Source: Phycisphaerales bacterium
Lineage (GTDB): Bacteria > Planctomycetota > Phycisphaerae > Phycisphaerales > UBA1924
Length of the DNA stretch: 47,539 nucleotides
Direction of reading: 5' to 3'
Assembly (NCBI GenBank): GCA_026647565.1
Contig: JAPKGU010000009.1
Span: forward strand, 1 to 47,539
Shown: positions 13,245-47,537 of the stretch, piece by piece
Numbering within the stretch: the stretch's first letter is position 1
How the letters are laid out: each line of letters begins with the position of its first letter
Notes under the pieces: generated by a model
The model's input: only the letters and a program-made list of their open reading frames with translations
Database searches by the model: none
What the model was told of the DNA's origin: nothing
Translations under genes and position numbers: made by a program

Positions 13245-13293
13245 CCGGAAGCCACAGTGTCGGGTGTCTCCCGACAGACTACGGAGTGCGAAC

Positions 13294-14349
<1,056 letters not shown>

Positions 14350-14363
14350 GCGATCAGGAACAG

Positions 14364-14427
14364 GCAGCCCGAGCGCGAGCGAGGGCGTGGCACAAGCATG
14401 CAGCCCGACCGTGAGGGAGGGCGTGAG
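14364..14427. repeat. Pair of REP-like 28-bp units
   Basis: Two related units lie 36 bp apart at 14364-14391 and 14400-14427, sharing about 23 of 28 bases. Both have the core GCAGCCCGA...GAGGGCGTG, and within each GCCC and GGGC can pair as a small hairpin. They sit just after moxR, directly before a degenerate CGCAGAAG-type repeat (about 14430-14475) that runs up to the Shine-Dalgarno of the next gene. Confidence 0.6.
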
Positions 14428-14485
14428 CGAAAAGAGAACGCATCGGCCGCAGAAGACCCACAGGGGCGCAAAGAAGGAGCGAATC

Positions 14486-15022: not shown

Positions 15023-15046
15023 TCCAGCATGGTGTGTGAGCGAGAC

Positions 15047-15103
15047 AAAGAGAACGCAGAGGGCGCAGAGGAATCGGAGTGACGCAGAGGAGGCAGAGTG
15101 GAA
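15047..15103. repeat. Left inverted repeat of the GxxExxY cassette
   Basis: CGCAGAG-type repeat starting AAAGAGAACGCAGAGGGCGC at 15047 and continuing through CGGAGTGACGCAGAGGAGGCAGAGTGG. A 19-bp core (AAGAGAACGCAGAGGGCGC) is matched exactly, in inverse orientation, by the right copy at about 15592-15611. It supplies GAGGAGG (about 15086-15092) as the ribosome site and the GTG start of the enclosed gene. Confidence 0.85.
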
Positions 15104-15613: not shown

Positions 15614-15618
15614 TTCTC

Positions 15619-16551: not shown

Positions 16552-18647
16552 CCTGGCTCACCCCATGGGTCGGCGCGATCGCCGCGGCTGTCGCGGTCCC
16601 CACCCTCCTCATCCTCTACTTCCTCAAGCTCCGGCGGCGTGACGTCGAGGTCTCCACCACGCTCCTCTGGAAGAAGGCGATCCAGGACCTCCAGGCCAAC
16701 GCCCCCTTCCAGCGCCTCCGTAAGAACCTGCTCCTTCTGCTCCAGCTTATCGTTCTCGGCGCGGCACTCTTCGCCCTCGCCCAGCCGCAGTTCAAGGGCA
16801 TGGCGACGACCGGCCAGCGTCACATCATCCTGATCGATCGCTCCGCGTCGATGCAGTCGCTGGATGAGACGGCCTCCGGTGGGCCGCGGGCCGTGCAGCG
16901 GCTCGATGCGGCGAAGCAGCAGGCGATCGAGCTGGTGGAGTCGCTGCGTGAGTCGAACGCGTTCCAGCGCGACAAGGCGGACGAGGCGATGGTCATCGCC
17001 TTCGATTCCACCGCCGAGGTCGTCGCCAACTTCACCTCCGACAAGGGCGCGCTCACCCGCGCGATCGAGGGGATCGAGGCCCGCGACTCGATCTCGTTCA
17101 TGGAAGAGGCGATGCGTCTTGCCCAGGCGCACGCCCCGCGCCGCGTCGTCGAGGGGCAGGCGATCGAGGGGCTTTCGCTCGCCGAGCCGGCAACGATCCA
17201 TCTCTGGACGGACGGGGCGATCGAGGACGCCGACCGAGTCCTTCCGACGATCGAGAAAGACGTGAAGTACCACGCCGTCGGGCTGGAGGGCGCGATCAAC
17301 CTCGGCATCACCAGCATCCGCGCCGAGCGCGACTTTGAGAATCCGAATCGGCTGAGCGTCTACGTGTCGATCTCGTCGACCGATCCATCGGCACGGACGC
17401 TCGACGTCGAGCTCGCGATCGACGGCGTTGTCGCCGGGGTGAAGTCCGTGACTGTTCCCGGCGTGGCCGTTCTGCCCGCGCCCGCGCCGACCGAGGACGG
17501 CGAGGCCGCGCCGCCACCCGAGCGATCGTCCGCATCGACCTCTGGCGTCGTGTTTGCGCTTAACCAGCCCGAGGGCGGCGTGATCACGACGCGCCTGCGA
17601 ACCGGCGGCGATGATGATCCTCGCGTCGACGCGCTCCGCGTCGACGACCGCGCATCCATCATCGTGCCTCCGGCCAAGCGCCTCGCCGTGGCGCTCGTGA
17701 CGCGGGGAAGTCTCTTCATCGAGGCCGCCCTTCAGGGACTTCCGCTGGCCCGGCTGGTCACGTACACGCCCGAGCAGTTCCAGACCGAGATGGACCAGGG
17801 TCGAGCCACGCAGTTCGACGTGGTGATTCTTGATTCCTGGCTCCCGCGCACGAGCGCCGGCGAGACTCTCCCGCCGGGTCGCTGGCTGGTCTTCAACGCG
17901 GTGCCGGGAGGCACGCTCGGACTCGCCGACGGGGGCGAGGGCGAGTCGGCGCTCTTCGTCGACTGGGCGCGAGACCATCCGGTCATGCGCGGGCTTGTTC
18001 TCGATAACGCCGTGATCGCCAGATCGAGGCGTGTCACGATCCCTGACGGCAACCCGATCGCCGTGCTCGCCATGACCTCCGTCGGCCCCGGCATCGCCGA
18101 GCTCATCACGCCCGAGGCCCGGGCGATCGTCGTTCCCTTCAACATCGCCGAGTCCACATGGCCCTTCGACGTCTCCTTTGTCGTCTTCACCGCGTCCGCA
18201 GTCACGTATCTCGGAGCCGACATCTCCGATCCGTCCGTGCGGCGCATGCTCCGGCCCGGCGGCATCCTCGCCGATCAGTTGCCCCCGGGAGCGACGGAGC
18301 CGGTGCTCGTGGAGCCGGATCAGCGCGAGACTTCGCTCGTGCTCGCTCCGGATCGACGCGTGACGTTCGGGCCAATCCGGCGCGTGGGGCTGTACCAGAT
18401 CCGCTGGTCCGGCGCTGGCACGGATCCGGGCGCGATCCGACCGCTCCGAACCTACTCCGCGAACCTGACCGATGCTTCGGAGAGCGACATCCGTGCGCAC
18501 CCGAGACTCGTGCTCGCCTCACGGACGGTCGCCGCGGAGAACGAGGGACGCGTCAAGGACCGCCGGCTCTGGCCGTGGCTCCTGCTTGTTGCTCTGCTCG
18601 TGCTGATGTTCGAGTGGTACGTCTACAACCGCAAGGTGTACTACTAG
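16548..18647 (+). CDS. BatA/VWA-domain membrane protein
   Basis: A 699-residue inner-membrane protein. It has an N-terminal BatA-type segment with helices at about 8-28 and 60-80 and the typical LRRRDVEVSTTLLWKKAI and LRKNLLLLLQLIVL. A VWA domain follows with an intact MIDAS start DRSAS (97-101), DSISFMEEAMRLA and HLWTDGAIEDAD. Long beta-rich regions come next, then a C-terminal helix near 670-688 followed by EWYVYNRKVYY. BatA-type proteins work with MoxR and DUF58 partners. It overlaps the DUF58 gene by 4 bp and ends the plus-strand block. Confidence 0.92.
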   Translation: MTWLTPWVGAIAAAVAVPTLLILYFLKLRRRDVEVSTTLLWKKAIQDLQANAPFQRLRKNLLLLLQLIVLGAALFALAQPQFKGMATTGQRHIILIDRSASMQSLDETASGGPRAVQRLDAAKQQAIELVESLRESNAFQRDKADEAMVIAFDSTAEVVANFTSDKGALTRAIEGIEARDSISFMEEAMRLAQAHAPRRVVEGQAIEGLSLAEPATIHLWTDGAIEDADRVLPTIEKDVKYHAVGLEGAINLGITSIRAERDFENPNRLSVYVSISSTDPSARTLDVELAIDGVVAGVKSVTVPGVAVLPAPAPTEDGEAAPPPERSSASTSGVVFALNQPEGGVITTRLRTGGDDDPRVDALRVDDRASIIVPPAKRLAVALVTRGSLFIEAALQGLPLARLVTYTPEQFQTEMDQGRATQFDVVILDSWLPRTSAGETLPPGRWLVFNAVPGGTLGLADGGEGESALFVDWARDHPVMRGLVLDNAVIARSRRVTIPDGNPIAVLAMTSVGPGIAELITPEARAIVVPFNIAESTWPFDVSFVVFTASAVTYLGADISDPSVRRMLRPGGILADQLPPGATEPVLVEPDQRETSLVLAPDRRVTFGPIRRVGLYQIRWSGAGTDPGAIRPLRTYSANLTDASESDIRAHPRLVLASRTVAAENEGRVKDRRLWPWLLLVALLVLMFEWYVYNRKVYY

Positions 18648-33042: not shown

Positions 33043-33181
33043 GCTTTCTCCTCCCCAAGACTCCCGCACCCGGTGTGCAGACAATGTGGGGAACCCGATC
33101 GCCGTGGATTGAGCGCGGGCGACCGGCTCGGGCCGATGATTGAGCGGGTTTGCGCGGCCGATGGGCGGCACGGAGGGCGCG

Positions 33182-34792
33182 ATGAATCTTTCCGAACTCA
33201 TCGCCGGGACAGGAGCGAGCGTCGTCCGGGGAGATCCCTCGGTCGTGCGCATCTGCGACGTCACAGAGGACAGCCGCACCGTCATGCCCGGCTCCCTCTT
33301 CATTGCGAGACGGGGGACGAGGGCGGACGGTCGGGCGCACGTCGGCGAAGCGTGCGAGCAGGGTGCGGTGGCGATCGTCTCCGACGACGCCGAGGTCTGT
33401 TCCGGGGGTGTGTGCGAGCGGGGTGCGCACCATCGCGCCATCGACCAGGGCGTCGCTCTGGTCATCACGCCCGACGTCCCGCGCGTCTCGGCCATCATGG
33501 CGGAACGCTTCTATGGAAACCCCTCGTCGCGTCTGCGAATGGTCGGCGTCACCGGCACCAACGGCAAGACCACGATCGTCCACCTCGTCCACCAGGCGCT
33601 GAACGCGTGCGCCGTTCGGACTGGCATGATCGGGACCGTTCAGATCGACGACGGGCGTGAGACCGCGGCGGCCAGCATGACCACGCCCCCCGCCGTGGAG
33701 GTCAGCCGCACGCTCGCCAGCATGGTTGAGTTCGGCTGCGTCGCGTGCGCGATGGAGACGTCCAGCCACGCGCTGGATCAGGGTCGAGTCGCCGCCGTCC
33801 GATTCGGAGTCGGCGTCTTCACGAACCTGACCGGCGACCACCTCGACTACCACAAGACGATGGAGGCGTACGCCGACGCCAAGGCGCGTCTCTTCGCATC
33901 GCTCCCGGAGAGCGGCGTCGCGATCGTCAACGCCGAGGACCCGGCCCATGAGCGGATGCTCCGCGACTGCCGGGCCAACGTCTTTCGCTGCGTCACCCGG
34001 CCCCTCACGCCCTCGGAGCGATCGAGCGGCTGGTGCTCGATTGTCGTGAGGGAACGGTCGGTTCGGGGCACGACTGCCGACATCGTCGGGCCCTGGTCGG
34101 TGAGCGGAGAGCCGCTGACAGTCACGTACCACCTCATCGGCGATCACAACGCGATGAACGTGCTCCAGGCCTTCGCCGCCGCGTGGATCATCGGGCGCGA
34201 GTTCCGCCTGACGCACACGCGGCTGGCCGAGTCGTTGTCGGGCGTCACGGCGCCGTGTGGACGACTGGAGCGTGTCGGTCCCGAGCGTGCGGGCGAGCCG
34301 ATCGTGCTGGTGGACTATGCGCACACGGACGACGGGCTTCGAAAGGCGCTCGAGGCCGTGCGCAGCGTGATGGGCGCGGGGACCGTTGCGGGCGGGCGCT
34401 TATGGGTCGTGTTCGGCGCGGGTGGCGACAAGGACAAGGCCAAGCGCCCGCGCATGGGCCGCGCCGCGTGGGACCTGGCCGACAGGATCGTTGTGACAAG
34501 CGACAATCCGAGGCGGGAAAGCCCGTCCGAGATCATCGATCAGATCCTCTCGGGCATGGAGCGGACCGGCAGGGAGGATCGCGTCACGGTGCAGGCCGAT
34601 CGGCGCGAAGCGATCTACCACGCGGTCGCGAACGCGGGCCCCGGCGACGTTGTCCTCATCGCTGGCAAGGGGCACGAGACCGAGCAGGTGCTGTCGGACG
34701 GGCGGGGCGGCACACGGACGACCCGCTTTGTCGATCAGGAGGTCGCGTCGGAGGCCCTCGCCGCTCGTGCTCGTTCGGAGGAAGAGAAGTGA
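33182..34792 (+). CDS. murE: UDP-N-acetylmuramoyl-tripeptide synthetase MurE (meso-DAP type)
   Basis: Cytoplasmic Mur ligase adding the third amino acid to the peptidoglycan precursor. It has the N-terminal UDP-binding domain (DVTEDSRTVMPGSLFIARRG), the ATP loop GVTGTNGKTT, METSSHALDQGRV, NLTGDHLDYHKTMEAYADAKARLF, and VLVDYAHTDDGLRKAL. It carries the DNPR motif (TSDNPRRESP), which in this family marks meso-diaminopimelate as substrate. The 536 residues are typical plus a short loop. ATG 33182 is preceded by GGAGG. It is first of murE-murF-mraY. A DAP-type MurE agrees with the peptidoglycan now known in planctomycetes. Confidence 0.97.
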   Translation: MNLSELIAGTGASVVRGDPSVVRICDVTEDSRTVMPGSLFIARRGTRADGRAHVGEACEQGAVAIVSDDAEVCSGGVCERGAHHRAIDQGVALVITPDVPRVSAIMAERFYGNPSSRLRMVGVTGTNGKTTIVHLVHQALNACAVRTGMIGTVQIDDGRETAAASMTTPPAVEVSRTLASMVEFGCVACAMETSSHALDQGRVAAVRFGVGVFTNLTGDHLDYHKTMEAYADAKARLFASLPESGVAIVNAEDPAHERMLRDCRANVFRCVTRPLTPSERSSGWCSIVVRERSVRGTTADIVGPWSVSGEPLTVTYHLIGDHNAMNVLQAFAAAWIIGREFRLTHTRLAESLSGVTAPCGRLERVGPERAGEPIVLVDYAHTDDGLRKALEAVRSVMGAGTVAGGRLWVVFGAGGDKDKAKRPRMGRAAWDLADRIVVTSDNPRRESPSEIIDQILSGMERTGREDRVTVQADRREAIYHAVANAGPGDVVLIAGKGHETEQVLSDGRGGTRTTRFVDQEVASEALAARARSEEEK

Positions 34793-34829
34793 TGCGTTCG
34801 ATGAAGCGTTCGCTCGATCGGAGGATGCG

Positions 34830-36278
34830 TTGACTCCACAGGATTCGTTCTGGACGCCCGACGGGATCAGGATCGCCGCCGGGGGCACGTGGCTCGCCCG
34901 TCCCGCGGACGGCGGCTCGGTGGTCTCCGGCGTCTCGATCGACAGCCGCGCCGTTGTGCCGGGTCAGGCGTTCATCGCGATCAGGGGCGATCGCACCGAC
35001 GGACACCTGTATCTCGCAGAGGCCTGCTCGCGCGGGGCGACGCTCCTGATCGTCTCCGACGGGCCGATCGCTCCCATGCCGCCGGGCGTCGGGGTCCTGC
35101 GCGTCGCCGACACGCGAGCGGCGCTGCTCCGGCTCGGCGCCGCGTGGCGGAGACTCCTCGATGGCACGCGAGTCGTCGCCGTGGTCGGCTCGAACGGGAA
35201 GACCACGACAGTCCGTCTCATCGACGCGGCACTCGGCGCCGCCCTGCGGGGCACGGCGTCGATCAAGAGCTTCAACAACTCGGTCGGTGTCCCGCTCACG
35301 ATCCTCGGCGCCAAACGCACCGACCAGTATCTCGTCTGCGAGGTCGGCACCAGCGCCCCGGGCGAGATCGCCTCTCTGTCGCAGATCGTCCAGCCCGACG
35401 TGGCCGTGATCACAAGCATCGGACGCGAGCACCTGGAGTTCCTCGGCTCACTCCGGGGCGTCGCCTCGGAGGAATCCAGCGTGCTCGATCACATCCGGCC
35501 GGGCGGCATCGGCGTCGTGACCTCCGACTCAACCGAGCTCGACGAGGTCATCCGCGCCCGTGCCGCCCGACGCGCGGACGGCGGACCGACCATCCTCCGC
35601 TTCGGTTCGGGCCCGAGCGCGGATGTGCGGGTCTGTCGGACGGAGCAGACCGAGCGCGGCACCGACTTTGAGCTCAACGACCGGGCCGCGTTCACGATCC
35701 CCCTGCTCGGTGCGCACAACGCGTGGAACGCGGCTGCCGCCGTCGCGGTCGCGCGACGCTTCCGTATCGCCGATGAGGACATCCGGCGCGGGCTTGCCTC
35801 CGCAACCGGCGCCGCGATGCGACTGGAGCGCAAACGCATCGGGCGCATCGAGGTCGTGAACGACGCGTACAACGCCAACCCCGACTCAGTCCTCGCCGCG
35901 ATCGGCACGCTCTCCGGACTCCGGCCCGCCGCGGGCGGCGGTCGCGTGCTCGTGCTCGGCGACATGCTCGAGCTGGGCCCCGAAGGGCCGTTGCTGCACG
36001 ACGAGGTTGTTCGGGCCGCGGCGGGTGACGCCTCCATCGAGCGAATCGCCCTCGTCGGCCCCTTGATGTCGGCTCGCGCCGCGATCATCCGCGCCGCGCG
36101 TGGAGACTCCGGCGTGGTGGCCGTGCACGACGCCTCGGCACCGAACGCCGCACGCGTCGCGGACATGGTCCTGCCCGGTGACGTTGTCCTCCTGAAGGGC
36201 TCTCGCGGCATGCGTCTGGAACGAATCGCCGAGGCGATCGAGACCGCCCACGCACGGGCCGGCAACGGAACCTCCTGA
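34830..36278 (+). CDS. murF: UDP-N-acetylmuramoyl-tripeptide:D-alanyl-D-alanine ligase
   Basis: Adds D-Ala-D-Ala to the muropeptide precursor. Motifs: VSGVSIDSRAVVPGQAFIAIRGDRTDG, VVGSNGKTTTVRLI, KSFNNSVGVPLTILG, EVGTSAPGEIASLSQIVQPDVAVITSIGREHLEFLG, NDAYNANPDSVLAAIGTL and LVLGDMLELGPEGPLLHDEV. The start is a TTG at 34830, with GGAGG at 34820-34824 giving 5-bp spacing; no ATG or GTG nearby fits the family better, and the longer open frame upstream overlaps murE without similarity. 482 residues. The stop overlaps the mraY ATG by one base (TGATG). Confidence 0.95.
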   Translation: MTPQDSFWTPDGIRIAAGGTWLARPADGGSVVSGVSIDSRAVVPGQAFIAIRGDRTDGHLYLAEACSRGATLLIVSDGPIAPMPPGVGVLRVADTRAALLRLGAAWRRLLDGTRVVAVVGSNGKTTTVRLIDAALGAALRGTASIKSFNNSVGVPLTILGAKRTDQYLVCEVGTSAPGEIASLSQIVQPDVAVITSIGREHLEFLGSLRGVASEESSVLDHIRPGGIGVVTSDSTELDEVIRARAARRADGGPTILRFGSGPSADVRVCRTEQTERGTDFELNDRAAFTIPLLGAHNAWNAAAAVAVARRFRIADEDIRRGLASATGAAMRLERKRIGRIEVVNDAYNANPDSVLAAIGTLSGLRPAAGGGRVLVLGDMLELGPEGPLLHDEVVRAAAGDASIERIALVGPLMSARAAIIRAARGDSGVVAVHDASAPNAARVADMVLPGDVVLLKGSRGMRLERIAEAIETAHARAGNGTS

Positions 36279-37462
36279 TGCTCTACCTGCTCATCTCCCG
36301 GCTGCGCGACTGGCTCGACGACAACCACATGACGTGGGCCACCGGCCTCATGGACCAGTTGCAGTTCCGCGCCCTGGCGGCCCTCCTCATCGCGTTCTTC
36401 CTCGTCCTCGCGCTCGGCAGGAGGACGATCCGGCTGCTCGTTCGCATGAAGATCGGGGACACCGGGGCGACCGATGCCGAAGCCCTCCGCGCCCATTCAC
36501 AGGGCAAGGCCAACACGCCGACGATGGGCGGTGCGCTGATCGTCGGGGCGATCGCTGTCGCGACCCTCATGCTCGCAGACGTCTCTCGCTTCTACGTCCA
36601 GCTCGCGCTCATCGTCATGCTCTGGACCGCGGCGCTCGGGGGGGTTGACGACTACCTCAAGCTCACGGCGGCGCGGCGCGGGGGCAGCCGTCAGGGCCTC
36701 TACGCATGGGAGAAGCTCGCGTTCCAGCTCGGCCTGGGGCTGCTCGTCGGGTACTTCGCGTTCAACCACGGCGATACCGACGCGGCGCACGACCTTGCCC
36801 ACGTGCTCAACCTGCCGTTCCAGAAGACCTTCGAGTCGAGCCAGGGAGACATCGCGCAAGGGCTTGTCTTCCTTGGGCGGGGCGCGTTCATCGTCATCGC
36901 CATGCTCATGCTCACGGGCATGAGCAACGCCGTGAACATCACCGACGGCATGGACGGGCTTGCCAGCGGCGTCTCCGCCGCGGTCTCGGTCGGCCTGCTC
37001 GTCATCGCCCTGATCGCCGGCAGCCAGGCCGCATCGACGTACCTGCTGGTGCCGCACATTCCGTTCGCCGACGAGCTGGCGGTGGTGGCGGGCGCGATGG
37101 TCGGGGCCACGCTCGGGTTCCTGTGGTGGAACTGCTCACCGGCGCAGGTGTTCATGGGCGACACCGGCTCTCTGGCGCTCGGAGCACTGATCGGCTACAT
37201 CGCGATCGTCACGCGCCAGGAGATCATCGTGCTCCTCATGTCCGGCGTCTTTCTGCTGGAGATCGCCTCGGTCACGATCCAGGTGGGCGTCTTCAAGGCG
37301 ACCCGCATCGCGACGGGCACCGGTCGGCGCGTCTTCAAGATCGCACCGTACCACCACGCCCTGCATCTCTCCGGTTGGAAGGAGCAGCAGATCGTTGCCC
37401 GTGCGTGGATCGTGGCGGTCCTGCTCGTCGCGGTCGCCATCTGGACGATCAAGGTCCGCTGA
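36278..37462 (+). CDS. mraY: Phospho-N-acetylmuramoyl-pentapeptide transferase
   Basis: Integral membrane enzyme that makes lipid I by moving phospho-MurNAc-pentapeptide onto undecaprenyl phosphate. About ten hydrophobic helices across 394 residues. Family motifs: KANTPTMGGALIV, AALGGVDDYLKL (catalytic Asp pair), MSNAVNITDGMDGLASGVSA, NCSPAQVFMGDTGSLALGALIG and IAPYHHALHLSGWKEQQIVAR (the C-terminal HHH-type motif as HHALH). Translationally coupled to murF. The usual next gene murD is not here; a convergent gene follows 12 bp after the stop, so the cluster ends at mraY. Confidence 0.97.
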   Translation: MLYLLISRLRDWLDDNHMTWATGLMDQLQFRALAALLIAFFLVLALGRRTIRLLVRMKIGDTGATDAEALRAHSQGKANTPTMGGALIVGAIAVATLMLADVSRFYVQLALIVMLWTAALGGVDDYLKLTAARRGGSRQGLYAWEKLAFQLGLGLLVGYFAFNHGDTDAAHDLAHVLNLPFQKTFESSQGDIAQGLVFLGRGAFIVIAMLMLTGMSNAVNITDGMDGLASGVSAAVSVGLLVIALIAGSQAASTYLLVPHIPFADELAVVAGAMVGATLGFLWWNCSPAQVFMGDTGSLALGALIGYIAIVTRQEIIVLLMSGVFLLEIASVTIQVGVFKATRIATGTGRRVFKIAPYHHALHLSGWKEQQIVARAWIVAVLLVAVAIWTIKVR

Positions 37463-37474
37463 GTCCCGATCGGC

Positions 37475-38692
37475 TCAGCGAGCGGAGACCCGGATCATCG
37501 CGAACGCGAGCGTCGGCCGGTCCTGCACCGGACCACGCTCCCCCGGCTCCACCCGCACGACGAGCGTCGCGCTTCCCGCCGGAAGGTCTGCCGAGACGGT
37601 CGCGACCGGTCGCTCCGCATTCACACGCCCGCGCCACACGTCCGTCGGCGCCGTGCCGTCCGCCCGGCTCGATGCGCCGATCACCACCTCGCAATCGCCC
37701 CAGTCCCTGAACGCCTCGGGCAGCACCACCTCGCACGAAACCCCGTCCGCGTTCGGCGGGAGCTTCCACGTCGCCACGCACGGCCCCGGCATGCGGATCT
37801 CCGCGGCACTCAGCGGCGCCTCGTCGCCGGCGCCGATCACAGGGGCGTCGGTCCACGGGCGAGGCGCCAGCGGCGACACGCCCACGAACTCGAGTCGCGA
37901 GAGCGGCACGAGCCGCCCCGCGTCGGGCATCCAGCCGATCACATTGTCGAGGATCGTCGTCGGCACGCCCGGCGAGGGCTCGGACTCCGAGGCGGAATGG
38001 ACGCGGGTGAGTGCGGGATCGAGCGCGACAAGGCCGGCCTCGCTCGCGGTGCCCGGCATCGACACGCGGACCACGCACCCGTCGGCGAGCCAGACCGTCG
38101 GTCCGGACGCGCGCTGGATCGGGTTCTGGAGGCGCACGGACGCGACCGCGTCGAGCGGAATGAGGCGCTCGCCCCCCGACTCGCCCTCTATCGCGATCTG
38201 CGCGCCCACGCGCGTCACAAGGCCTCGCACGGCATCGCCGTTTGAGAGCAGCACAAGGTCGCCACCCGAAGCGCGGCCCGGTGCCGGCATGCCGGGCATG
38301 ACCAGAGTGGAGACAGCATCCAGCGGGACGCGCACCACGCCGAGGGAAGGGTGCTCAACCATCACGTCATCCCCGGTGCTCACCGTCAAGCCGTCCGCCG
38401 ACTTTGCCAGCGAGCCGACGATCCGCTGGCCGTCCGTGAGCGAAAGGACCGGCGTTCCGGGGACCGTCGTCACGCGCGCCGGCCGGTAGAGCGCCAACAG
38501 GTCGGTGTGCGGAATGATCCTGCGCGATCCCTTCGCGTCTCGCGTATGAACGCCCGAGGAATCGAGGGCGTCGACGACGATCTCCGTTCGCGACAGGTCC
38601 CGCCCGATCATCACTCGCCTCGGAGCATCCGGCTCGATCCCGAGCAGTGCGGACGCGAGCATCACGACCGGGATGGAGTGGAGAGCGATCAT
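37475..38692 (-). CDS. Secreted beta-rich protein, unrecognised
   Basis: A 405-residue protein with an N-terminal signal peptide (MIALHSIPVVMLASALLG). It has repeated short beta units that each contrast a value with a site description (SLTDGQRIVGSLAKSADGLTVSTGDDV; LLSNGDAVRGLVTRVGAQIAIEGESGGERLIPLDAVASVRL), typical of planctomycete exported proteins with LPLD.V..I-type repeats. The C-terminal half has a jelly-roll-like domain (ATWKLPPNADGVSCEVVLPEAFRDWGDCEVVIG; GSATLVVRVEPGERG) resembling NPCBM-type sugar-binding modules. Its start overlaps the toroid-protein stop by 4 bp, so it is last in the coupled cluster. Function unknown. Confidence 0.8.
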   Translation of the reverse strand: MIALHSIPVVMLASALLGIEPDAPRRVMIGRDLSRTEIVVDALDSSGVHTRDAKGSRRIIPHTDLLALYRPARVTTVPGTPVLSLTDGQRIVGSLAKSADGLTVSTGDDVMVEHPSLGVVRVPLDAVSTLVMPGMPAPGRASGGDLVLLSNGDAVRGLVTRVGAQIAIEGESGGERLIPLDAVASVRLQNPIQRASGPTVWLADGCVVRVSMPGTASEAGLVALDPALTRVHSASESEPSPGVPTTILDNVIGWMPDAGRLVPLSRLEFVGVSPLAPRPWTDAPVIGAGDEAPLSAAEIRMPGPCVATWKLPPNADGVSCEVVLPEAFRDWGDCEVVIGASSRADGTAPTDVWRGRVNAERPVATVSADLPAGSATLVVRVEPGERGPVQDRPTLAFAMIRVSAR

Positions 38693-39843
38693 TTCTGGAA
38701 GATCGGCAGATAACGCTTGGGGATCTGAAGGACAAGCAGCGCCATCGACGTGGAATAGGTCGGACCGACCGAACGATCGTCCCAGGCCCCCGAGTCGAGC
38801 TGCTGCGCGAGCAGTTCCTCCCGCGCCGCGGGCCACCACCGGGCCCACGACTCGCCCCCCGCAAGGTACATGGCCTGGATCGCGTAGTAGTGCCCGTAGT
38901 AGTAGTGCGTGCGCGGGGCCCGCCCGGTGCCGGGCATGGCGACCGCGTTCAGATACTCGAGCCCGCGATCGATCGAATCGTCGTTGTAGATACCGGCGTA
39001 GAAGAGCGTCGCCACGCCCGCCGCGGAGCGGGGCCACGCCGAGGCCCCGACATCCAGCTGGTACTTGAACCCGCCGTCGGGATTCTGGCACTGGCGCACA
39101 TACGCGACGGCGCGATCGATGGTGTCGCGTGAGACCTCGATGCCGGCGTTGCGCGCCGACCGAAGCCCCATGACCTGGCAGATCGTCACGGACGAATCGG
39201 CGTCGTAGGGCACGGGGTTGTACCGCCATCCGCCCTGGTCATTCTGCGTCGACTCGATCAGGCGAACCGCCTTGACCAGTGCCTCGTGGGTCCGCTGCGC
39301 CATCCGCGTGTCGCCGCCACCGGCCGTCATGCCGTAGACCTCGCCCAGGAAGAGCGTCGCGAATCCGTGGCCGTACATCGGTCCGTTGGTGGCGTCCGAG
39401 GCGACCAGCCCGTTCTCCGCGACATTGGCGAGCACAAACTCCAGGCCCCGCGTCACGTGCTCCGCGTACGGGCCCCGACCCGGCACGCTCCCGTCGGACA
39501 TGAACGCAAGACACGCCAGCGACGTGATCGCGATGTTCCGCTCGTAGCGAAGATCGCCGAAGGAGCCGTCCTGATTCTGCTGGAGCGCGAGGTACGCCAG
39601 ACCCTTGGCGATCGCGGCGTCGAGTTCGGGCGTGATTTCGTTCTCCAGGACGACGTTCTGTGCGCTCCGATGCCCCTCGGGCGCGATGTCGCTCAGCGGA
39701 TCCGACGCCGGCGGGCCGGACGTCACGGGTTCCGGCTCCGGCGGAGCGGGCGGCGGCTCGACGGCCTGGCCTCGCGCGCAGGCGCACGCGAAGACGCTCA
39801 GCACGCATGCGCCGGCCAGACGTCGTTGGCCCGCGGCCCTCAT
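38689..39843 (-). CDS. Secreted alpha/alpha-toroid protein (prenyltransferase/squalene-cyclase-like repeats)
   Basis: A 384-residue exported protein. After a signal peptide (RRLAGACVLSVFACACARGQA) and Pro-rich linker come repeated QW-type units: LAYLALQQNQDGSFGD, IESTQNDQGGWRYNP, VRQCQNPDGGFKYQLD, and LLAQQLDSGAWDDRSVGPTYSTSMALLVLQIPKRYLPI. The pattern of Q..DG.(F/W) is the repeat of squalene-hopene cyclases and prenyltransferases, but the catalytic DxDD of cyclases is not seen. The export signal also argues against terpenoid cyclisation. Such proteins are common in planctomycetes next to MoxR/VWA/DUF4175 genes. Overlaps both neighbours by 4 bp. Confidence 0.88.
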   Translation of the reverse strand: MRAAGQRRLAGACVLSVFACACARGQAVEPPPAPPEPEPVTSGPPASDPLSDIAPEGHRSAQNVVLENEITPELDAAIAKGLAYLALQQNQDGSFGDLRYERNIAITSLACLAFMSDGSVPGRGPYAEHVTRGLEFVLANVAENGLVASDATNGPMYGHGFATLFLGEVYGMTAGGGDTRMAQRTHEALVKAVRLIESTQNDQGGWRYNPVPYDADSSVTICQVMGLRSARNAGIEVSRDTIDRAVAYVRQCQNPDGGFKYQLDVGASAWPRSAAGVATLFYAGIYNDDSIDRGLEYLNAVAMPGTGRAPRTHYYYGHYYAIQAMYLAGGESWARWWPAAREELLAQQLDSGAWDDRSVGPTYSTSMALLVLQIPKRYLPIFQK

Positions 39844-40514
39844 GGTCGTTTCTCCTCGGCCAGACGCCGGTAGTACTGCTCCGTCATGGTCTGATAGATC
39901 GAGCTGAACTTGTCGCTCGATCCCTGCACCAGCGCCTCGCGCAAGCGCTCGGGGAGCGCGCCCCACGCCGCGGCGTTCAGCTGAGCGTTGTTCAGCGCGC
40001 CGTCCCGGCGTCCGGGCGGCTGCCCGTCCTGCGGATCGCCCTCCTGTTGGTCGCGCCGCGCGTCCTGCTGCTGCTGCTGCTGTTGCTGGCTCTGGTTCGG
40101 CTGGTTCTGCTGCTCCTGCTCGGACGCCGAGGACGATGACGATGAGGAACTCTGGTTCTGCGTCGACGCCGCGATCACCGCGTCGAGCTTGCGCACCACA
40201 TCTTCCTGAAGGCGCTGCGTGACGAGTCCGGGATCGCGTCCGTCCGCGAGCCGACCGGCTGTCTGTTCCATCAACTGCACAGCCTGCTGGAACGCCTCCG
40301 CCGCGTCCTCGGCCGACAGCTTCCTGTCGAGTGCGGCTCGGTCCGCATCGGGCAGCTCAACAACCGGCGCATCGGTGCTTCCCGGTGGCGCGAGACCAAG
40401 AAGTTCATCGAGCGAGGGCAAGCGCCTGACGGGCCCGGATGCAGTCGCCGGCTGGGCCGCGCACAGCGTGCCGGTCGCCAGCGCGAGCGTCGAGATGATC
40501 GCGGCGCGCCTCAC
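39840..40514 (-). CDS. Secreted Ser/Gln-rich protein
   Basis: A 224-residue protein from GTG 40514. It has a signal peptide (RRAAIISTLALATGTLCAAQPATA), then SLDELLGLAPPG and a helical segment (AEDAAEAFQQAVQLMEQTAGRLADGRDPGLVTQRLQEDVVRKLDAVI). A low-complexity stretch of eight Ser and then many Gln/Asn follows (coded partly by a CTG/CAG triplet run at about 40065-40088), and a C-terminal helical part (AWGALPERLREALVQG; FSSIYQTMTEQYYRRLAEE). The C-terminal LPERLREAL...YRRLAE element is seen in planctomycete proteins encoded beside DUF4175 genes. It overlaps both neighbours by 4 bp. Confidence 0.8.
   Translation of the reverse strand: MRRAAIISTLALATGTLCAAQPATASGPVRRLPSLDELLGLAPPGSTDAPVVELPDADRAALDRKLSAEDAAEAFQQAVQLMEQTAGRLADGRDPGLVTQRLQEDVVRKLDAVIAASTQNQSSSSSSSSASEQEQQNQPNQSQQQQQQQQDARRDQQEGDPQDGQPPGRRDGALNNAQLNAAAWGALPERLREALVQGSSDKFSSIYQTMTEQYYRRLAEEKRP
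40065..40088. repeat. CTG/CAG triplet run
   Basis: Six CTG units (40065-40082), one TTG and one CTG on the plus strand, coding a run of eight Gln in the minus-strand protein. A Ser run coded by mixed TCC/TCG/TCA-type codons lies just upstream in the protein. Triplet runs of this kind can change length by slippage without shifting the frame. Confidence 0.7.
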
Positions 40515-43500
40515 GGTTCCACCTCCCGGCTCGACTCCCCGTCCTGTCCACTGCCCCGGCCCTCCGGCAACGCCTGCTCCGCCTGCGTCATCTGCTCGAC
40601 GAGCGCCCTGCCCTGCTCGGCCAGTTGCTTCTGGAGCGTCGCGAGCGATTCAAGATCTGCGGGGGTGAAGCTCGCGGGGTCGTCCGCAGCGGAGCGCGTC
40701 GAGTCAAGCACGAGCTGCTGCATCTCGCGGAGCAGTCGGACCTTCGCCATGTCCGGGATCAGCCGCTCGCCACCCTGCCCCTGTCCCTGCCCGCCCCCAC
40801 CCTGCGAGCCCCCCGCCTGATCCTGGAAGTCGCGTTCGTCCTTCGGGTCCTGCAGCGAGGCCAGGAGCGACTGGAGCAGGCGGGACGCGCTCTCCTGGTT
40901 CCTCACCACGGCGCGATCGATCGTCGCCTCGCGCAGCGCCGCGGCCGCGGCTCTCATCGCGTCATCGATCCGATCGTGCGCGAATCCGAAGACCTGGGCT
41001 TCAGACAACTCCTCCGTTTTCGCCCGCAGCTCGCTCATCGAGGTCCGGAGCGACTCCTGCTGCTCGCCCGCCTGCCTGACGCCGGCCCTCGCGCGCCGGT
41101 CCAGTTCGACACCCACGAGTGGAGCGCTACGGCCGATCAGATCGCGCTGCTGCTCCAGCGCCTCGCGATACGCGGCCCGCAGCTCCTTGCGCTTCCGACC
41201 GGCGTCGCGCTCGGCCGCCTCCTTGTCCAGTCGCTCGGCCTCGGCCTTCGCGTCGCGCAGGCGCGCCCCGCTGAGCCGCTCGGCCGTGTCGGCACCTTCG
41301 AGGTCGACCGGCTCGCGCAAGGCCGCGATCGCGTTCGCCTGCGCCGTCGCCGCGGCCATCACGAGGTTCGCAACAACTTCCATCTGGTTGCCGCCTGCGA
41401 TGATCTGGTCGACCACGCCAAGCGTGTTCTGGCTCAGCCGGATCATCCCCTGCTCAAGCCCCTGGCTCGATGCCCCGCCCCGCGCTCGCGTGAGCAGGGC
41501 GATCTGCGAGTCCTGCTGGGCGATGAGCGACTCGAGCGACTCGATCACGCTCGACAGCTGGCGGCGCAGGGACTCGTCGCGGCGCCGCTCGGCGCTGTCG
41601 AGGTCCTCCAGCATCTCCTCGAGCGTCTGGATCGCCTCGCGCTGGCGCTCCGCGGCCGCGTTCGCCTGGTTCTGCGAGATCTGCCTCGCCGCCTCGTCAA
41701 GTTTCGGCGCGACGTTGCTCGTGCGACCCCGCTGCGTTGCCAGCGCCATCGCCTGGGCCTGGGCCGCGTCGGCGTCCTTCAGGTCGCGGCTCCGCTCGGA
41801 CAACTCGTCGAGCGCGCCCTCGGCCTGGCGTGCCGCCTCCGACTGGCGCTCGGCGATGCGCTCCAACTCCGATCGCTCGTCGCGGGACAGCTGGTCGACC
41901 GTCCGTCCGGTCGTGCGTCCCGACATCGCCATCGTCTCTTCGAGCAGACGACGCTGATCAGACAGCAGCCGCTCGACAGACCGGCGAGCGACCCATGCGT
42001 CCTGTCCGTTGTCCAGCAGGCGGACCAGCTGGCCCAGCTCGTCGCGAACCTCGTCCTGCGACGCCTCGATCTCGCGGCGGTCCTCCTCGTTGATACTCGC
42101 CGGCGCTTCCTCGTCGGGGCGCGGCTCGGCGGCTGCACGCTGGATCCGCTGCGTCGCCTCCTGCGACGCGCGGGCGGCGCCGTCGACGAAGGACGCGGCG
42201 TCATCGAGCAGCCCCGCCAGCGACTCGTCCGACAGGTTGTTCCGCTGGGCCCTCGACACCAGGCGCTGCAGCGTCTCGCGCTGCGACGCGATCCGCTCGC
42301 CGAGGGCCGCCTGACGCTCCGATAGGTCCCTGGGGGGTGGCTCGCTCTTGACGGCGCGCGAGAGCTCCGCCTGCTCCGCATCAAGGCGGATCGCCGCCTG
42401 ACGGATCGACTGCAACTCCGCCCGGACCTGGTCGATGAGTTCCGGCTCCGTGATGATCCTGAGCCGGCGCGGCGCCGATCGTGCGGGCTCGTGCGCCCCG
42501 CTCCCGAGCGTGAAGCCGTCGGTCGCCACCGCCGTGACCCACACCTCGTCCCCGCCCTTCACACCGAGCGTCGACAGGTCGAGTGTGTGCTGCGTGCGCC
42601 CGATGCGTGAGATGGAAGCGGGGGCCTCCGGTCCCACCACGAGCGCGGGACCCGCGTCGGGGGCAGCCTCGGCGCCGACGCCGCTGCTCGGCGCCGGCGG
42701 ACGCGCGATCACGAACTCCAGGGACGTGTCGCGGACCTCCACGTCGTCCCGTCCCTCGCCGATGATGCCGATCGATGCCGTCGCCAGCACCGCCTCGTCC
42801 TGGGACGGCTGCACGACGGACGCGACGGGCGGAGCATCCGCGACGGCGTCGATGGAGATGACCGCCTCATCGGTCGACGCCACGCCGTGCTCATCGATCA
42901 CTCCGACTCGAAGGGTCGTCGGCGCGCCCAGCGTCCACGACAGCGTCCAACGCGAGCCGGAGAGATCCGCGATCAGGCCGTCGGGCAGCGCCTCGACGCC
43001 CAGGGTCCGCCGAAGGAACCCGGAGTACCCGAGATCGCCGGGAGCTGGCGAGGGCAGCGGCTTCGAGTGCTCGATCACCATCGAGACCTCGCTCCCGATG
43101 AGCGGAGCCGGCATCGGCTTGGACGGCGCCGGAAGCAGCACATGCTCGGCCTCGCCCCGCTCGGGCTCGAGAGCCGCGAACGCGAGCGCCGCATACGCCG
43201 GGGGCCGCACTCGCGCGATCGCGCCGAGCACAACCGGGGGACGGACGATCAGCACGCGGGTCGGATCCGTCTGGCTGTCCTCAGTCCTCAGCCAGTACTC
43301 CAGCGTGGCCTCATCGGCCGACGCGGCTCCGAGGATCGCGCCCGGTTCCAGCAGACGCTCGAAGAGCTCGCCGCTGACCGTCGTCTCACCCGCCGACGCC
43401 TCCGTCGTGCGCGCCTGCGAAGTCAGGACGACCGTCTGAAGAGGTCCCGCCTCCTCGCGCCCCGAGCGCTGGGTTGTGATCACCCGATACTGGGCAAGGA

Positions 43501-44203
43501 CCCGGGTCTGCCCCTCTCTCTTGTTCGTGCGGGCGAGAACACCCCGGATCGAGAGCGACCGATCCGCCGGATGCACGGTCGTTTCGGTCACATCAACGAT
43601 GAGCGTTCGCGTGGGCCAGCGAGCGTCCGTCCAGGGCGTGAGCACCCGCATCGCCGCCGTGCGCACCAGGCCCGGCCAGACGAAAGCCGGTGCAACCGCG
43701 ACGATCAGCGAGAGCACCAGCACGCCCGCAGCCCGCAGCGTTACTCTCGGAGACAGGATCGCGCCGGTCAGGCCGGGCGACCAAAGCCCCGCGGCGGCCT
43801 TCGAGACCTCCGATGCCAGCCCTTGCTCGATCGGCGATCGATGCTCCTCCGCGTCCAGTTCCAGACCCGACGCCAGCACCCCGGACAGCCCCGCGCTGCG
43901 CCCCGCCTCGCTCGCTTCGATACGCAGGGCAACCTCGCGCAGCGCCGGGCGGAACCTCGAGGCCGGCAGGACAAACCTGACCACACCGGCCAGCAACGCA
44001 CCGGCCAGAGCGATCAGAAACGCGATTCGCAGCGCCGCCGGGAAGCGGAGCACGTAATCGAGCATGCCGATCAGCACCATCGCGAGCACGATCGCCGCGA
44101 TGACAAGGCATGCCGCACGGGCCATGAGCAGGCCCCGAGCCCTGGCACGCACCCGCGCCAGCCCGCGTTGGATCTGCCCCGTCTGTCGGCTCTCCGTCGC
44201 CAT
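40511..44203 (-). CDS. DUF4175-like large membrane and coiled-coil protein
   Basis: A 1230-residue protein. Two N-terminal helices (CLVIAAIVLAMVLIGMLDYVL and AALRIAFLIALAGALLAGVV) and a third near LVLSLIVAVAPAFVWPGLV anchor it. Outside beta-rich domains follow (DARWPTRTLIVDVTETTVHPADRSLSIRGVLART; YWLRTEDSQTDPTRVLIVRPP). From about residue 600 to 1150 there is a very long Gln/Glu/Arg/Ala-rich coiled coil (QAELSRAVKSEPPPRDLSERQAALGERIASQR; ERIAERQSEAARQAEGALDELSERS), ending in GGGQGQGQGG and a Gln-rich tail. ATG 44203 is preferred to 44272 because the export-side basic segment starts there. First gene of the 4-bp-overlapping cluster; a structural envelope role is likely. Confidence 0.85.
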   Translation of the reverse strand: MATESRQTGQIQRGLARVRARARGLLMARAACLVIAAIVLAMVLIGMLDYVLRFPAALRIAFLIALAGALLAGVVRFVLPASRFRPALREVALRIEASEAGRSAGLSGVLASGLELDAEEHRSPIEQGLASEVSKAAAGLWSPGLTGAILSPRVTLRAAGVLVLSLIVAVAPAFVWPGLVRTAAMRVLTPWTDARWPTRTLIVDVTETTVHPADRSLSIRGVLARTNKREGQTRVLAQYRVITTQRSGREEAGPLQTVVLTSQARTTEASAGETTVSGELFERLLEPGAILGAASADEATLEYWLRTEDSQTDPTRVLIVRPPVVLGAIARVRPPAYAALAFAALEPERGEAEHVLLPAPSKPMPAPLIGSEVSMVIEHSKPLPSPAPGDLGYSGFLRRTLGVEALPDGLIADLSGSRWTLSWTLGAPTTLRVGVIDEHGVASTDEAVISIDAVADAPPVASVVQPSQDEAVLATASIGIIGEGRDDVEVRDTSLEFVIARPPAPSSGVGAEAAPDAGPALVVGPEAPASISRIGRTQHTLDLSTLGVKGGDEVWVTAVATDGFTLGSGAHEPARSAPRRLRIITEPELIDQVRAELQSIRQAAIRLDAEQAELSRAVKSEPPPRDLSERQAALGERIASQRETLQRLVSRAQRNNLSDESLAGLLDDAASFVDGAARASQEATQRIQRAAAEPRPDEEAPASINEEDRREIEASQDEVRDELGQLVRLLDNGQDAWVARRSVERLLSDQRRLLEETMAMSGRTTGRTVDQLSRDERSELERIAERQSEAARQAEGALDELSERSRDLKDADAAQAQAMALATQRGRTSNVAPKLDEAARQISQNQANAAAERQREAIQTLEEMLEDLDSAERRRDESLRRQLSSVIESLESLIAQQDSQIALLTRARGGASSQGLEQGMIRLSQNTLGVVDQIIAGGNQMEVVANLVMAAATAQANAIAALREPVDLEGADTAERLSGARLRDAKAEAERLDKEAAERDAGRKRKELRAAYREALEQQRDLIGRSAPLVGVELDRRARAGVRQAGEQQESLRTSMSELRAKTEELSEAQVFGFAHDRIDDAMRAAAAALREATIDRAVVRNQESASRLLQSLLASLQDPKDERDFQDQAGGSQGGGGQGQGQGGERLIPDMAKVRLLREMQQLVLDSTRSAADDPASFTPADLESLATLQKQLAEQGRALVEQMTQAEQALPEGRGSGQDGESSREVEP

Positions 44204-44477: not shown

Positions 44478-47400
44478 TCAGGCCGCGCCCTGGTTCCGCC
44501 GGTTGTCCGGGCGAATGACGCGATTGCCCCGGGGGTCTTCCTCGTCCGCGTCATCTTCCTCTTGCGCGACCTCCGAGTCATCGAGAGCCGTGTGCTCATC
44601 GTCCGACTCGTCGTACACAAGCTCCGGCACGGCCGATTCACCGCCGTCCGGGTCATCATCCTCCGGCCCCTCGTCCGACAACTCGGCCTCGGGTGCGTCG
44701 GCCTCGTCGGACGCATCGTCGTCCCACGGTGCCTCCTGCGATCGGGCGTCGAGGCCGCCCTTCGGCTCGACGTCGGCGCTCGGTCGATCGCCTTGAAAGA
44801 GGGTTCCGGCGCTCTCCTGGCGCTGCTGATCTTCTGCCGCCAGGCGCTTCATCGCCTCCCACTGTTCGATCGTGATCAGGACGTCGCGCGCCACCGATCC
44901 CTTGTGGTCGGAGATGATGCCGGCGATGCCCATCAGGTCGATCAGGCGGCTCGAACGGGTGTACCCGATCGCCAGGCGACGCTGGAGCAGCGAAACCGAC
45001 CCGCGACCGGACTCGAGAACGATCTCGACGGCGCGGTCGAACATCGGGTCTTCCTGCGCCGCCGCGAGCGAAGCGGACGAGTTGTTCTCGCTCTCGATGA
45101 GCCGCTCCTCGTCGCTGCCTCCGGAGCGGATCTGCATGAGCTGGCGCTCGAAGGTCGGGCCCGCGATCTCGCGCATGAACCGGACCACCCGTCGAATCTC
45201 CTTGTCGTCGACCAGCGTGCCCTGCGAACGGACGAGCTTGCTCGTGCGTGGCGACAGATACAGCATGTCGCCCTGACCGAGCAGAAGCTCGCCGCCCTTC
45301 TGATCGAGCACGATGCGCGAGTCCATGCCGCTGGCCACCTTGAACGAGATGCGGCACGGCATGTTGGACTTGATCAGGCCCGTCACGACGTTCGCCTGGG
45401 GCCGCTGCGTCGCAAGGATCAGGTGGATGCCGACCGCACGGGCCTTCTGCGCGATGCGGATGATTGACCCCTCGACCTCCTTGTTCGTCATCATCAGGTC
45501 GGCCAGCTCGTCGATGATGAACACCATGTAGGGCAGGCGACGCGGGATGCGGGCCTCCTCCTCCGGTGACGCAGGGTTCAACGCCGCCTTCAGATCCTCC
45601 CACGGCAGCTCGTTGTACGACGCGATGTCGCGGCAGCCCGCCTCCGCCAGCAGCTCGTACCGCTCGTCCATCTTCTTGCACGCCCACTCGAGGATCGCCG
45701 CCGCCTTGGCCATCTCCGTCACCACAGGGCACATCAGGTGCGGGATGTCCTTGAACTGGCTCATCTCCACCATCTTCGGGTCGACCAGCACCAGCTTCAG
45801 CTCGTTGGGCTTCTTCGTGTAGAGGAAGCTCATGATGATCGTGTTCATGCACACCGACTTGCCGGAACCCGTGGTTCCCGCGATCAGCATGTGCGGCATC
45901 TGCGTCAGGTCCGCGATCAGCGGATCTCCCGCCGCGTCCTTCCCCAGGAACATCGGCAGCTTCATCTTGGCGAACGCCTCGGAGTTGCTCATCAGCTCCT
46001 TCAGCCGCACGCGCTCCTTCGTCGGGTTGGGCACCTCGATGCCGACCGTGTCACGCCCCGCCTGGTTCGGGACGATGCGGATGTTCACGGCCTTCAGCGA
46101 CCTCGCGATGTCCGAGTCGATGGCGTTCAGCTGCGCGACTTTCGTTCCCGGCGCGAGCCGCACGTCGTAGAGCGTGATCACCGGGCCGGACTCGATCCCC
46201 ACCACCTCGCCGTCGATCTTGTACTGGCGGAGCGCACCCTCCAGCGCCTGGGCCTGCTCCCGCACCATCTCCTCGAGGACCTGCGAGAAGTTCTCTTCCG
46301 GGGCCTCGAGCAGGTCAAGACTGGGGAACTGGTATCCCTCCATCTCAGAGACGCCCTGCAGGTCACGCAGGTCGTCCTCCGTTGCGACCTTGCGCGTGTC
46401 ACGTCCGAATCGCACGGGGAGCTTTGAGATCTTCTCGCGCAGCTCGTCCTCGGAATAGACCTGCGGCGCACCGGGGGCGTCGGCGCCATCCTCCTCCGAT
46501 TCGTCCGCTTCCTCGACGGGAATGAGCTTGCTCGACGCCAGCGTCGGGCGGGCCGACGGCACGTCGTCCTCCTCCCGGCGGGACCGGGGCCTCGTGCCCC
46601 TTTGATCCGGGCGGACCGGCTCGATGGGCTGCGTCGCCCCGAGGCCGCCCGCCTCCTCGTCGATCGCCTCCACCTGGCCGCCCGCGATGATCGCCCTCGC
46701 GCCCTTCGCGCTCCGTCCGGTCCGATCCGGACCGCTCCTGGCACTCCGATCCACTTCGGGCGTCTCGTCCAGATCGTGCTCACGCACCCGGATCGGACGC
46801 GCGTTCCTGAACATCCGCGCCAACGCCCCGAAGAGTCCGCCCCCGGCACGAACGGATGCCTTCATCGTCGCGCCCGCGGCGTTCACGCCCGCGCTCCCCG
46901 CGACCTCCGCCGTCCGCTTTGCGGCCGGTCGCAACGCCTCGATCGCCAGCGCGGGGATCGCCAGCACCCAGCGATCGAACACCACGATCAGCCCGATCAC
47001 CATGAACAGCAGGAGCCACAGCATGGACCCCGCCTGCTTGAAACGCAGCGCCAGTTCCTCGGCAAGGAACGCGCCGATCGTCCCGCCCGAGAGCCCCTCG
47101 ATCGCGCCCAGCGACGGCGCGACGAGAGCGAAGATCCCGGCGAGTGAGAGCGCGATGATCGCAACACCGAGCGCTCGCACGAACATGTGCGTCACCGCGC
47201 GCCCGAGCATCGGGAGCAGCATCGCAAGCCCGCCGAAACCCAGCAGGATCCACGTGCCGATGCCGAAGAGCTTGAACGTGTGGTACGACAGCACCGCCCC
47301 GACCGGGCCGCAGAGATTCCGCACCGGATCGTTCTGGGGATAGACCATGTGCGAAGGGGGATCGCCCGCGTCGAACGACACGATGCTGAGCGCCAGGAAC

Positions 47401-47537
47401 GCCCAGGCCGTCACCCCGATCAGCCACGCGACGCGCCGCCCGACCTGCGACTCGCCGCCTCCGACACCCCCCTTCCCGGCTGATGCGGAACGAGCGCGCG
47501 GAGTCTTCCCGACCTTCTTCTTGGTGTGTCCAGACAT
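44478..47537 (-). CDS. ftsK: DNA translocase FtsK
   Basis: Septum-linked motor that pumps chromosome DNA at division and activates dimer resolution. The 1019 residues include several N-terminal membrane helices (about 33-195: VAWLIGVTAWAFLALSIV; IGTWILLGFGGLAMLLPML; GSMLWLLLFMVIGLIVVF), then a linker of about 180 residues rich in Arg, Glu and Asp. The alpha/beta motor has Walker A GTTGSGKS near 555 and Walker B MVFIIDELADLMM near 670, with LILATQRPQANVVTGLIKSNMPCRI. The gamma winged helix (DPMFDRAVEIVLESGRGSVSLLQRRLAIGYTRSSRLIDLM, about 830-895) binds KOPS-type sites. After gamma comes an extra acidic tail of about 110 residues. ATG 47537 is 2 bp from the window edge. Confidence 0.96.
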   Translation of the reverse strand: MSGHTKKKVGKTPRARSASAGKGGVGGGESQVGRRVAWLIGVTAWAFLALSIVSFDAGDPPSHMVYPQNDPVRNLCGPVGAVLSYHTFKLFGIGTWILLGFGGLAMLLPMLGRAVTHMFVRALGVAIIALSLAGIFALVAPSLGAIEGLSGGTIGAFLAEELALRFKQAGSMLWLLLFMVIGLIVVFDRWVLAIPALAIEALRPAAKRTAEVAGSAGVNAAGATMKASVRAGGGLFGALARMFRNARPIRVREHDLDETPEVDRSARSGPDRTGRSAKGARAIIAGGQVEAIDEEAGGLGATQPIEPVRPDQRGTRPRSRREEDDVPSARPTLASSKLIPVEEADESEEDGADAPGAPQVYSEDELREKISKLPVRFGRDTRKVATEDDLRDLQGVSEMEGYQFPSLDLLEAPEENFSQVLEEMVREQAQALEGALRQYKIDGEVVGIESGPVITLYDVRLAPGTKVAQLNAIDSDIARSLKAVNIRIVPNQAGRDTVGIEVPNPTKERVRLKELMSNSEAFAKMKLPMFLGKDAAGDPLIADLTQMPHMLIAGTTGSGKSVCMNTIIMSFLYTKKPNELKLVLVDPKMVEMSQFKDIPHLMCPVVTEMAKAAAILEWACKKMDERYELLAEAGCRDIASYNELPWEDLKAALNPASPEEEARIPRRLPYMVFIIDELADLMMTNKEVEGSIIRIAQKARAVGIHLILATQRPQANVVTGLIKSNMPCRISFKVASGMDSRIVLDQKGGELLLGQGDMLYLSPRTSKLVRSQGTLVDDKEIRRVVRFMREIAGPTFERQLMQIRSGGSDEERLIESENNSSASLAAAQEDPMFDRAVEIVLESGRGSVSLLQRRLAIGYTRSSRLIDLMGIAGIISDHKGSVARDVLITIEQWEAMKRLAAEDQQRQESAGTLFQGDRPSADVEPKGGLDARSQEAPWDDDASDEADAPEAELSDEGPEDDDPDGGESAVPELVYDESDDEHTALDDSEVAQEEDDADEEDPRGNRVIRPDNRRNQGAA

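Follow-up and report, generated by a model that had tools for sequence, protein, structure and literature searches.

A conserved four-gene envelope set of Planctomycetota as the probable extracytoplasmic arm of a MoxR-DUF58-vWA system

Introduction

MoxR-DUF58-vWA systems are widespread, and their extracytoplasmic targets are for the most part unknown. MoxR-vWA pairs act as chaperone and co-chaperone in other systems (PMC7159879). In the Bat, or MoxR-DUF58-BatA, operons, genes for a MoxR AAA+ protein, a DUF58 protein and a BatA-type vWA membrane protein are followed by genes for envelope proteins, and the loci described here share this plan. We analyzed a stretch of 47,539 nucleotides from a Phycisphaerales bacterium (contig JAPKGU010000009.1 of assembly GCA_026647565.1; hereafter the window) that carries four overlapping genes, A to D, for a predicted membrane-anchored scaffold with immunoglobulin (Ig)-like domains, a small Ser/Gln-rich protein, an exported toroid and a putative carbohydrate-binding protein. 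In many related genomes these genes lie directly downstream of DUF58 and vWA genes, and on balance we consider it probable that A-B-C-D, organized as the two modules A-B and C-D, serve a Bat-like (MoxR-DUF58-vWA) AAA+ remodelling system typical of planctomycetes as its extracytoplasmic arm. The literature searched held nothing direct on DUF4159, DUF4175 or MoxR in Planctomycetes, and neither a paper describing the A-D set nor a described function for it. A-D is a real and conserved set and, as far as that literature reaches, previously undescribed as a set. It offers named candidate targets for this class of AAA+ system; its genes stay linked across much of Planctomycetota, whose envelopes are unusual, and its gene fusions and carbohydrate-binding domain allow direct tests.

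Results

Four genes joined by 4-bp overlaps

Genes A to D are joined by three overlaps of exactly 4 bp each. A preliminary description of the window had reported these ATGA and GTGA stop/start overlaps, and its coordinates proved right:

40511..44203, minus strand: gene A, 1230 residues, ATG start at 44203
42449..43606, minus strand: Ig-like beta-domain region of A, residues ~200-585 (AlphaFold2, Foldseek, and Pfam in relatives)
40511..40514, minus strand: overlap of A stop and B start, 4 bp, GTGA, read directly; Shine-Dalgarno (SD)-like GGGAGG just upstream, inside A
39840..40514, minus strand: gene B, 224 residues, GTG start
39840..39843, minus strand: overlap of B stop and C start, 4 bp, ATGA, read directly; SD-like GAGGAG inside B
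38689..39843, minus strand: gene C, 384 residues
38689..38692, minus strand: overlap of C stop and D start, 4 bp, ATGA, read directly; no SD-like motif
37475..38692, minus strand: gene D, 405 residues, stop at 37475
37484..37915, minus strand: NPCBM/CBM51-like domain of D, residues ~260-403, mapped from homologues

Conservation of this arrangement was counted over 86 distinct Phycisphaerales loci in which all four genes are separate. A-B-C-D are contiguous in 84 of them, which bears out the view of a co-conserved extracytoplasmic set. The overlaps had been called strict, and here the picture is looser: at least two are kept in 73 of the 86 loci, and all three in only 32. By junction, over 103 distinct loci, 4-bp overlaps occur at A>B in 68/88, at B>C in 78/98 and at C>D in 65/100 cases, counts that are upper bounds because an overlap was scored whenever an in-frame start codon lay at -4. 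Other conserved same-strand junctions of the same loci, leaving aside the BatA>vWA2 junction treated below, overlap by 4 bp in 14/57 cases (~25%), and murE-murF-type junctions in 6/11. Such overlaps are thus common, yet enriched at A-D, and the conservation of both order and overlaps in Phycisphaerales indicates that the arrangement is not due to chance.

The conserved ATGA and GTGA overlaps are those of translationally coupled overlapping genes, and such coupling fits termination-reinitiation (PMC6728339, PMC10666635). An SD-like motif accompanies 31/32 B starts and 31/33 C starts; 28/31 D starts are without one, likely because the bases at that position encode LPIFQK, the conserved tail of C. 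Lacking this motif, D seems to be the gene most dependent on reinitiation. No sigma-70 consensus emerged from a promoter scan of the A-D region.

Fusion of A with B at several loci

A and B form a single open reading frame (ORF), A then B, at seven loci (L067, L094, L095, L100, L104, L167 and L170), L192 is a further A-B fusion, and some of the fusions may be independent events. When unfused, B comprises a signal peptide, an LDELLGL motif, a Ser/Gln-rich middle and a conserved C-terminal WGxLPxR...YYRRLAEE block, and 94% of its members have a hydrophobic N-terminus as judged by hydropathy only. Fused B begins at profile position 19-31, past its signal peptide; fusion without this signal places B beside the tail of A, outside the cytoplasm, and implies 1:1 amounts of the two in those species. 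Pairing of A with B, at 1:1 and in the same compartment, is consequently well supported by these fused sequences. At a separate locus (L193 5664-11589, genome G196) a 1974-residue ORF contains A, interrupted by a large insertion, together with a patch resembling B.

MoxR, DUF58 and vWA genes precede A in relatives

The preliminary description lacked the main context of the set, the MoxR-DUF58-vWA genes that lie immediately upstream in most relatives. In most Phycisphaerales loci with sufficient flanking sequence, A is directly preceded by genes for DUF58, a BatA-like vWA membrane protein and another membrane protein with a vWA domain (vWA2), the BatA and vWA_2 domains being Pfam matches, and in part of those loci MoxR precedes them. 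DUF58-BatA-vWA2 followed by A is the order typical of relatives outside the genus of the window, so that there MoxR, DUF58 and BatA-type vWA genes are linked to envelope genes as in Bat-like operons. The BatA>vWA2 junction usually carries a 4-bp overlap (19/23 in the junction-comparison set, 47/53 in the per-junction count) and vWA2>A almost never does (3/55); the operon thus consists of two blocks that are each coupled internally, and it is between these blocks that it is broken in the genus of the window. In the window itself A-D are unlinked to MoxR-DUF58-vWA genes and ftsK lies upstream of A instead; the DUF58-BatA-vWA2 genes of this genome are on contig C204. In G003, a relative assembled as a single contig, their position is C1:67963-72668 and that of A is C1:3623748 of 3.80 Mb, placing the two halves ~244 kb apart if the contig is circular.

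A search of 41 genomes, that of the window included, recovered the A protein in 37. Among 244 Planctomycetota genomes sampled across the phylum, profiles matched A in 207, C in 215 and vWA2 in 179 (E<=1e-60); A, C, D and vWA2 are jointly absent from six genomes of the same class (families f7-f9), which speaks for the MoxR-linked reading. The eight-gene order MoxR-DUF58-BatA-vWA2-A-B-C-D recurs in distant families (L172 and L178, and L185 from the BatA-like gene onward), and a single operon of MoxR, DUF58, the BatA-like vWA protein, vWA2, A, B, C and D is the fullest and probably also the ancestral form. Elsewhere C stands before A, two genes together make up A, or B is followed by another toroid gene (L173, L179, L188, L190). 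In family f30, vWA2-A-B and C-D occupy separate places, and in single-contig genomes the distance between them ranges from hundreds of kb to over 1 Mb (L181/L182, L183/L184, L197/L198). C and D stay paired when away from A-B (L181, L183, L197, L200); the set thus behaves as two modules, A-B and C-D. In two members of the same taxonomic order, G040 (L188 491-2909) and G028 (L189 13603-15975), a C-like toroid gene directly precedes or overlaps MoxR; in G040 A is additionally split in two genes.

Features of the A, C and D proteins

All four products had been credited with export or membrane signals, in agreement with the hydropathy of their N-termini. A has an N-terminal membrane region with up to three hydrophobic segments (hydropathy only; around residues 22, 50 and 149 in the window protein), followed by tandem Ig-like beta-domains and a long coiled-coil and Gln/Gly-rich tail. 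Its residues 1-620 were modelled by AlphaFold2 with a mean predicted local distance difference test (pLDDT) score of 90.7 and a predicted template modelling score of 0.64. Foldseek matched the model to tandem Ig folds with low TM-scores, for which reason we regard these matches as generic; Big_7 is a Pfam match in 6/27 members, and a search of solved structures returned coiled-coil noise alone. The label DUF4175-like holds in part: the window protein has no match to DUF4175 (PF13779), and of its close relatives 1/27 matches, at E=0.0066, but the distant homologue L173 scores above the curated cut-off (47.5 versus 27.3 bits). A is thus, by this profile evidence, a remote DUF4175 relative, and its assignment as a canonical DUF4175 protein was discarded, the window protein being unmatched.

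C consists of a signal peptide and an alpha/alpha toroid with a DADxS motif and a conserved C-terminal LPIFQK; 88% of its members have a hydrophobic N-terminus (hydropathy only). It matches Pfam PF13243 at 40.4 bits (cut-off 26.1), and its profile matches squalene-hopene cyclase in the PDB at 2.3e-12, the match being partial. QW-type motifs, at residues 89-95, 200-206, 253-259 and 348-354, are present in 30/30 members. C is the most conserved of the four proteins, with 56-83% identity to the window protein in an alignment of 30, and H159, R228, R231, D216, S218, R272, Y316, Y319 and Y320 are invariant polar or aromatic residues. Its best matches among named relatives are all Phycisphaerales or related planctomycete metagenome-assembled genomes, a few evidently mislabelled. 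Neither DXDD nor DCTA occurs in any of the 30 members, which agrees with the earlier view of an exported toroid that is not a normal terpene cyclase and led us to reject a terpene cyclase role. The thioester C-x-E-Q of the alpha-macroglobulin/TED toroid is likewise present in 0/30; a macroglobulin-like pairing of the A Ig domains with a TED toroid was rejected on this ground and on the low Ig TM-scores.

D, the fastest-evolving gene of the four, encodes a signal peptide (hydrophobic N-terminus in 94% of members, hydropathy only), repeated small beta-domains and a C-terminal NPCBM/CBM51-like domain. The AlphaFold2 model has a pLDDT of 89.6, and Foldseek places the C-terminal domain closest to CBM51 of Clostridium perfringens and Sp3GH98, with a probability of 1.00 to CBM51. 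The window protein has no Pfam match; PF08305 is matched in 8/28 relatives, and the distant homologue L172 matches it at 9.2e-29. Profile and fold together mark the domain as NPCBM/CBM51-like, and D is on this basis a putative carbohydrate-binding protein. In one genome (G036, locus L064) D, at G036:C57:22550-23713, has moved ~6 kb and to the opposite strand, with A-B-C still together.

Other genes of the window

The remaining features relevant to the set are these:

44478-47537, minus strand: ftsK, directly upstream of A, stop at 44478
36278-37462, plus strand: mraY, convergent with D
33140-37462, plus strand: murE-murF-mraY genes, convergent with D
10002-13244, plus strand: vWA/GATase-like membrane protein, paralogous MoxR cluster
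13264-14349, plus strand: MoxR, paralogous MoxR cluster
15619-16551, plus strand: DUF58, paralogous MoxR cluster; 4-bp overlap with the BatA-like gene
16548-18647, plus strand: BatA-like vWA protein, paralogous MoxR cluster

The gap between the ftsK stop and the A start is 274 nt, and ftsK adjoins A in the four genus members only; coupling of A-D to FtsK or the dcw cluster was rejected, this adjacency being confined to the genus. Convergence of murE-murF-mraY with D recurs in ~13 loci of the same family. The cluster at 10002-18647 (plus strand) is a second, paralogous MoxR cluster, and it was dismissed as the partner of A-D since the orthologous DUF58-BatA-vWA2 genes are on C204.

Discussion

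The sequences themselves establish the genes, their overlaps and conserved neighbourhood, the A-B fusions and the domain folds. From the chaperone role of MoxR-vWA pairs and the order of the genes, we propose that scaffold A is acted on at the membrane by the MoxR half. A cytoplasmic MoxR ring, partnered by DUF58 and vWA proteins, would remodel or assemble membrane-anchored A, whose Ig-like and coiled-coil part would lie outside the cytoplasmic membrane, and B would bind the tail of A. Secreted toroid C and carbohydrate-binding D would form a second module in touch with an envelope or extracellular glycan, and the 4-bp overlaps would couple translation through termination-reinitiation, most strictly for D, which is without an SD-like motif. 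C-D may contact A-B and the set may contact the MoxR half, both steps from gene neighbourhood to physical contact; the target may be a glycan and the activity remodelling. A broader and distinctly more tentative proposal is that the MoxR ring, via membrane vWA proteins, might control an extracytoplasmic Ig-scaffold, toroid and glycan-reader, so that envelope building or remodelling would be ATP-driven across the phylum and a cyclase-fold protein would serve as a binding or structural part.

Several observations weigh against a MoxR-driven arm. The MoxR half is unlinked from A-D in the genus of the window, so that the case for co-function there is drawn from relatives, and contig C204 showed no MoxR next to DUF58. 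The vWA2>A junction is seldom coupled, the D profile matched fewer than half of the genomes sampled across the phylum (107/244 at E<=1e-5), although D evolves fastest of the four, and Bat deletions in Leptospira biflexa were without a clear phenotype (PMC3557215).

A fixed stoichiometric envelope complex of all four proteins, with coupling keeping their amounts equal, was the conclusion drawn in the preliminary description. The three overlaps, the order kept in 84/86 loci, the A-B fusions and the enrichment of overlapping pairs for complex subunits (PMC10666635) all speak for it, but we would restrict the claim to two pairs, A-B and C-D, as parts of a MoxR-linked system, with the fusions supporting A-B. 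C-D can lie more than 1 Mb from A-B (L181/L182, L183/L184), in other families C precedes A or A is split in two genes, the C>D overlap is present in just 65/100 cases, and the SD motifs at B and C permit initiation above 1:1. Variable gene order, named at the outset as the observation that would count against a complex, is thus found in part, at the scale of the phylum, and we regard the four-protein complex as rather unlikely. Somewhat less likely still is that tight operon packing alone explains the overlaps, the envelope proteins being co-expressed and sharing no complex. In E. coli and H. volcanii no more than 30-45% of overlapping or near-touching pairs encode subunits of a complex, the majority of overlapping E. 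coli pairs do not (PMC10666635), and overlaps alone are therefore no proof of one; 4-bp overlaps also occur at the murE-murF-type (6/11) and BatA>vWA2 (19/23) junctions. Packing does not, however, account for the persistence of A-B and C-D as pairs over the phylum despite rearrangement, nor for repeated A-B fusions.

Two further alternatives concern individual proteins. C could be an active extracytoplasmic enzyme with a cyclase, lyase or transferase fold that A, B and D deliver to a glycan or lipid substrate. Its high conservation, its invariant polar and aromatic set and the CBM-like fold of D lend this some appeal, but the DXDD, DCTA and thioester motifs are wanting in every member aligned and the cyclase profile matches only in part, which leaves an enzymatic C a possibility we rate well below the MoxR-linked arm. 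A role for A in cell division, linked to FtsK and the dcw cluster, is highly improbable. The idea draws on the adjacent ftsK in the four genus members, on mraY-type genes convergent in 13 loci and on Acinetobacter AdvA, a DUF4175-annotated division protein (PMC7481262), yet the ftsK adjacency is limited to the genus, MoxR-DUF58-vWA genes take its place elsewhere, and the DUF4175 relation of A is remote.

Compared with described families, A resembles DUF4175 proteins through its distant homologue L173, which exceeds the Pfam cut-off, and differs from them in the unmatched window protein, the long coiled-coil, the Ig-like domains and the fusion to B. C shares the alpha/alpha toroid and QW motifs of squalene-hopene and oxidosqualene cyclases, but is exported, is a single short toroid without DXDD or DCTA, and ends in LPIFQK. 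The C-terminal fold of D, matched directly by Pfam in relatives, is that of NPCBM/NEW2 and CBM51 modules; in D it has no attached glycoside hydrolase and is preceded by repeated small beta-domains. A MoxR and vWA core is also found in the MoxR-vWA ternary conflict systems (VMAP, iSTAND; PMC7159879); VMAP, STAND and effector genes were not seen here, where envelope proteins occupy their place. For the Bat operons, no BatB, TPR or BatD gene turned up in our loci, although no search was aimed at them, and in the genus of the window the A-D set and the MoxR half occupy two loci. In place of the Bat complement, the planctomycete loci carry vWA2, the DUF4175-like scaffold A with its Ig-like domains, protein B, the exported toroid C, and D with its NPCBM-like domain.

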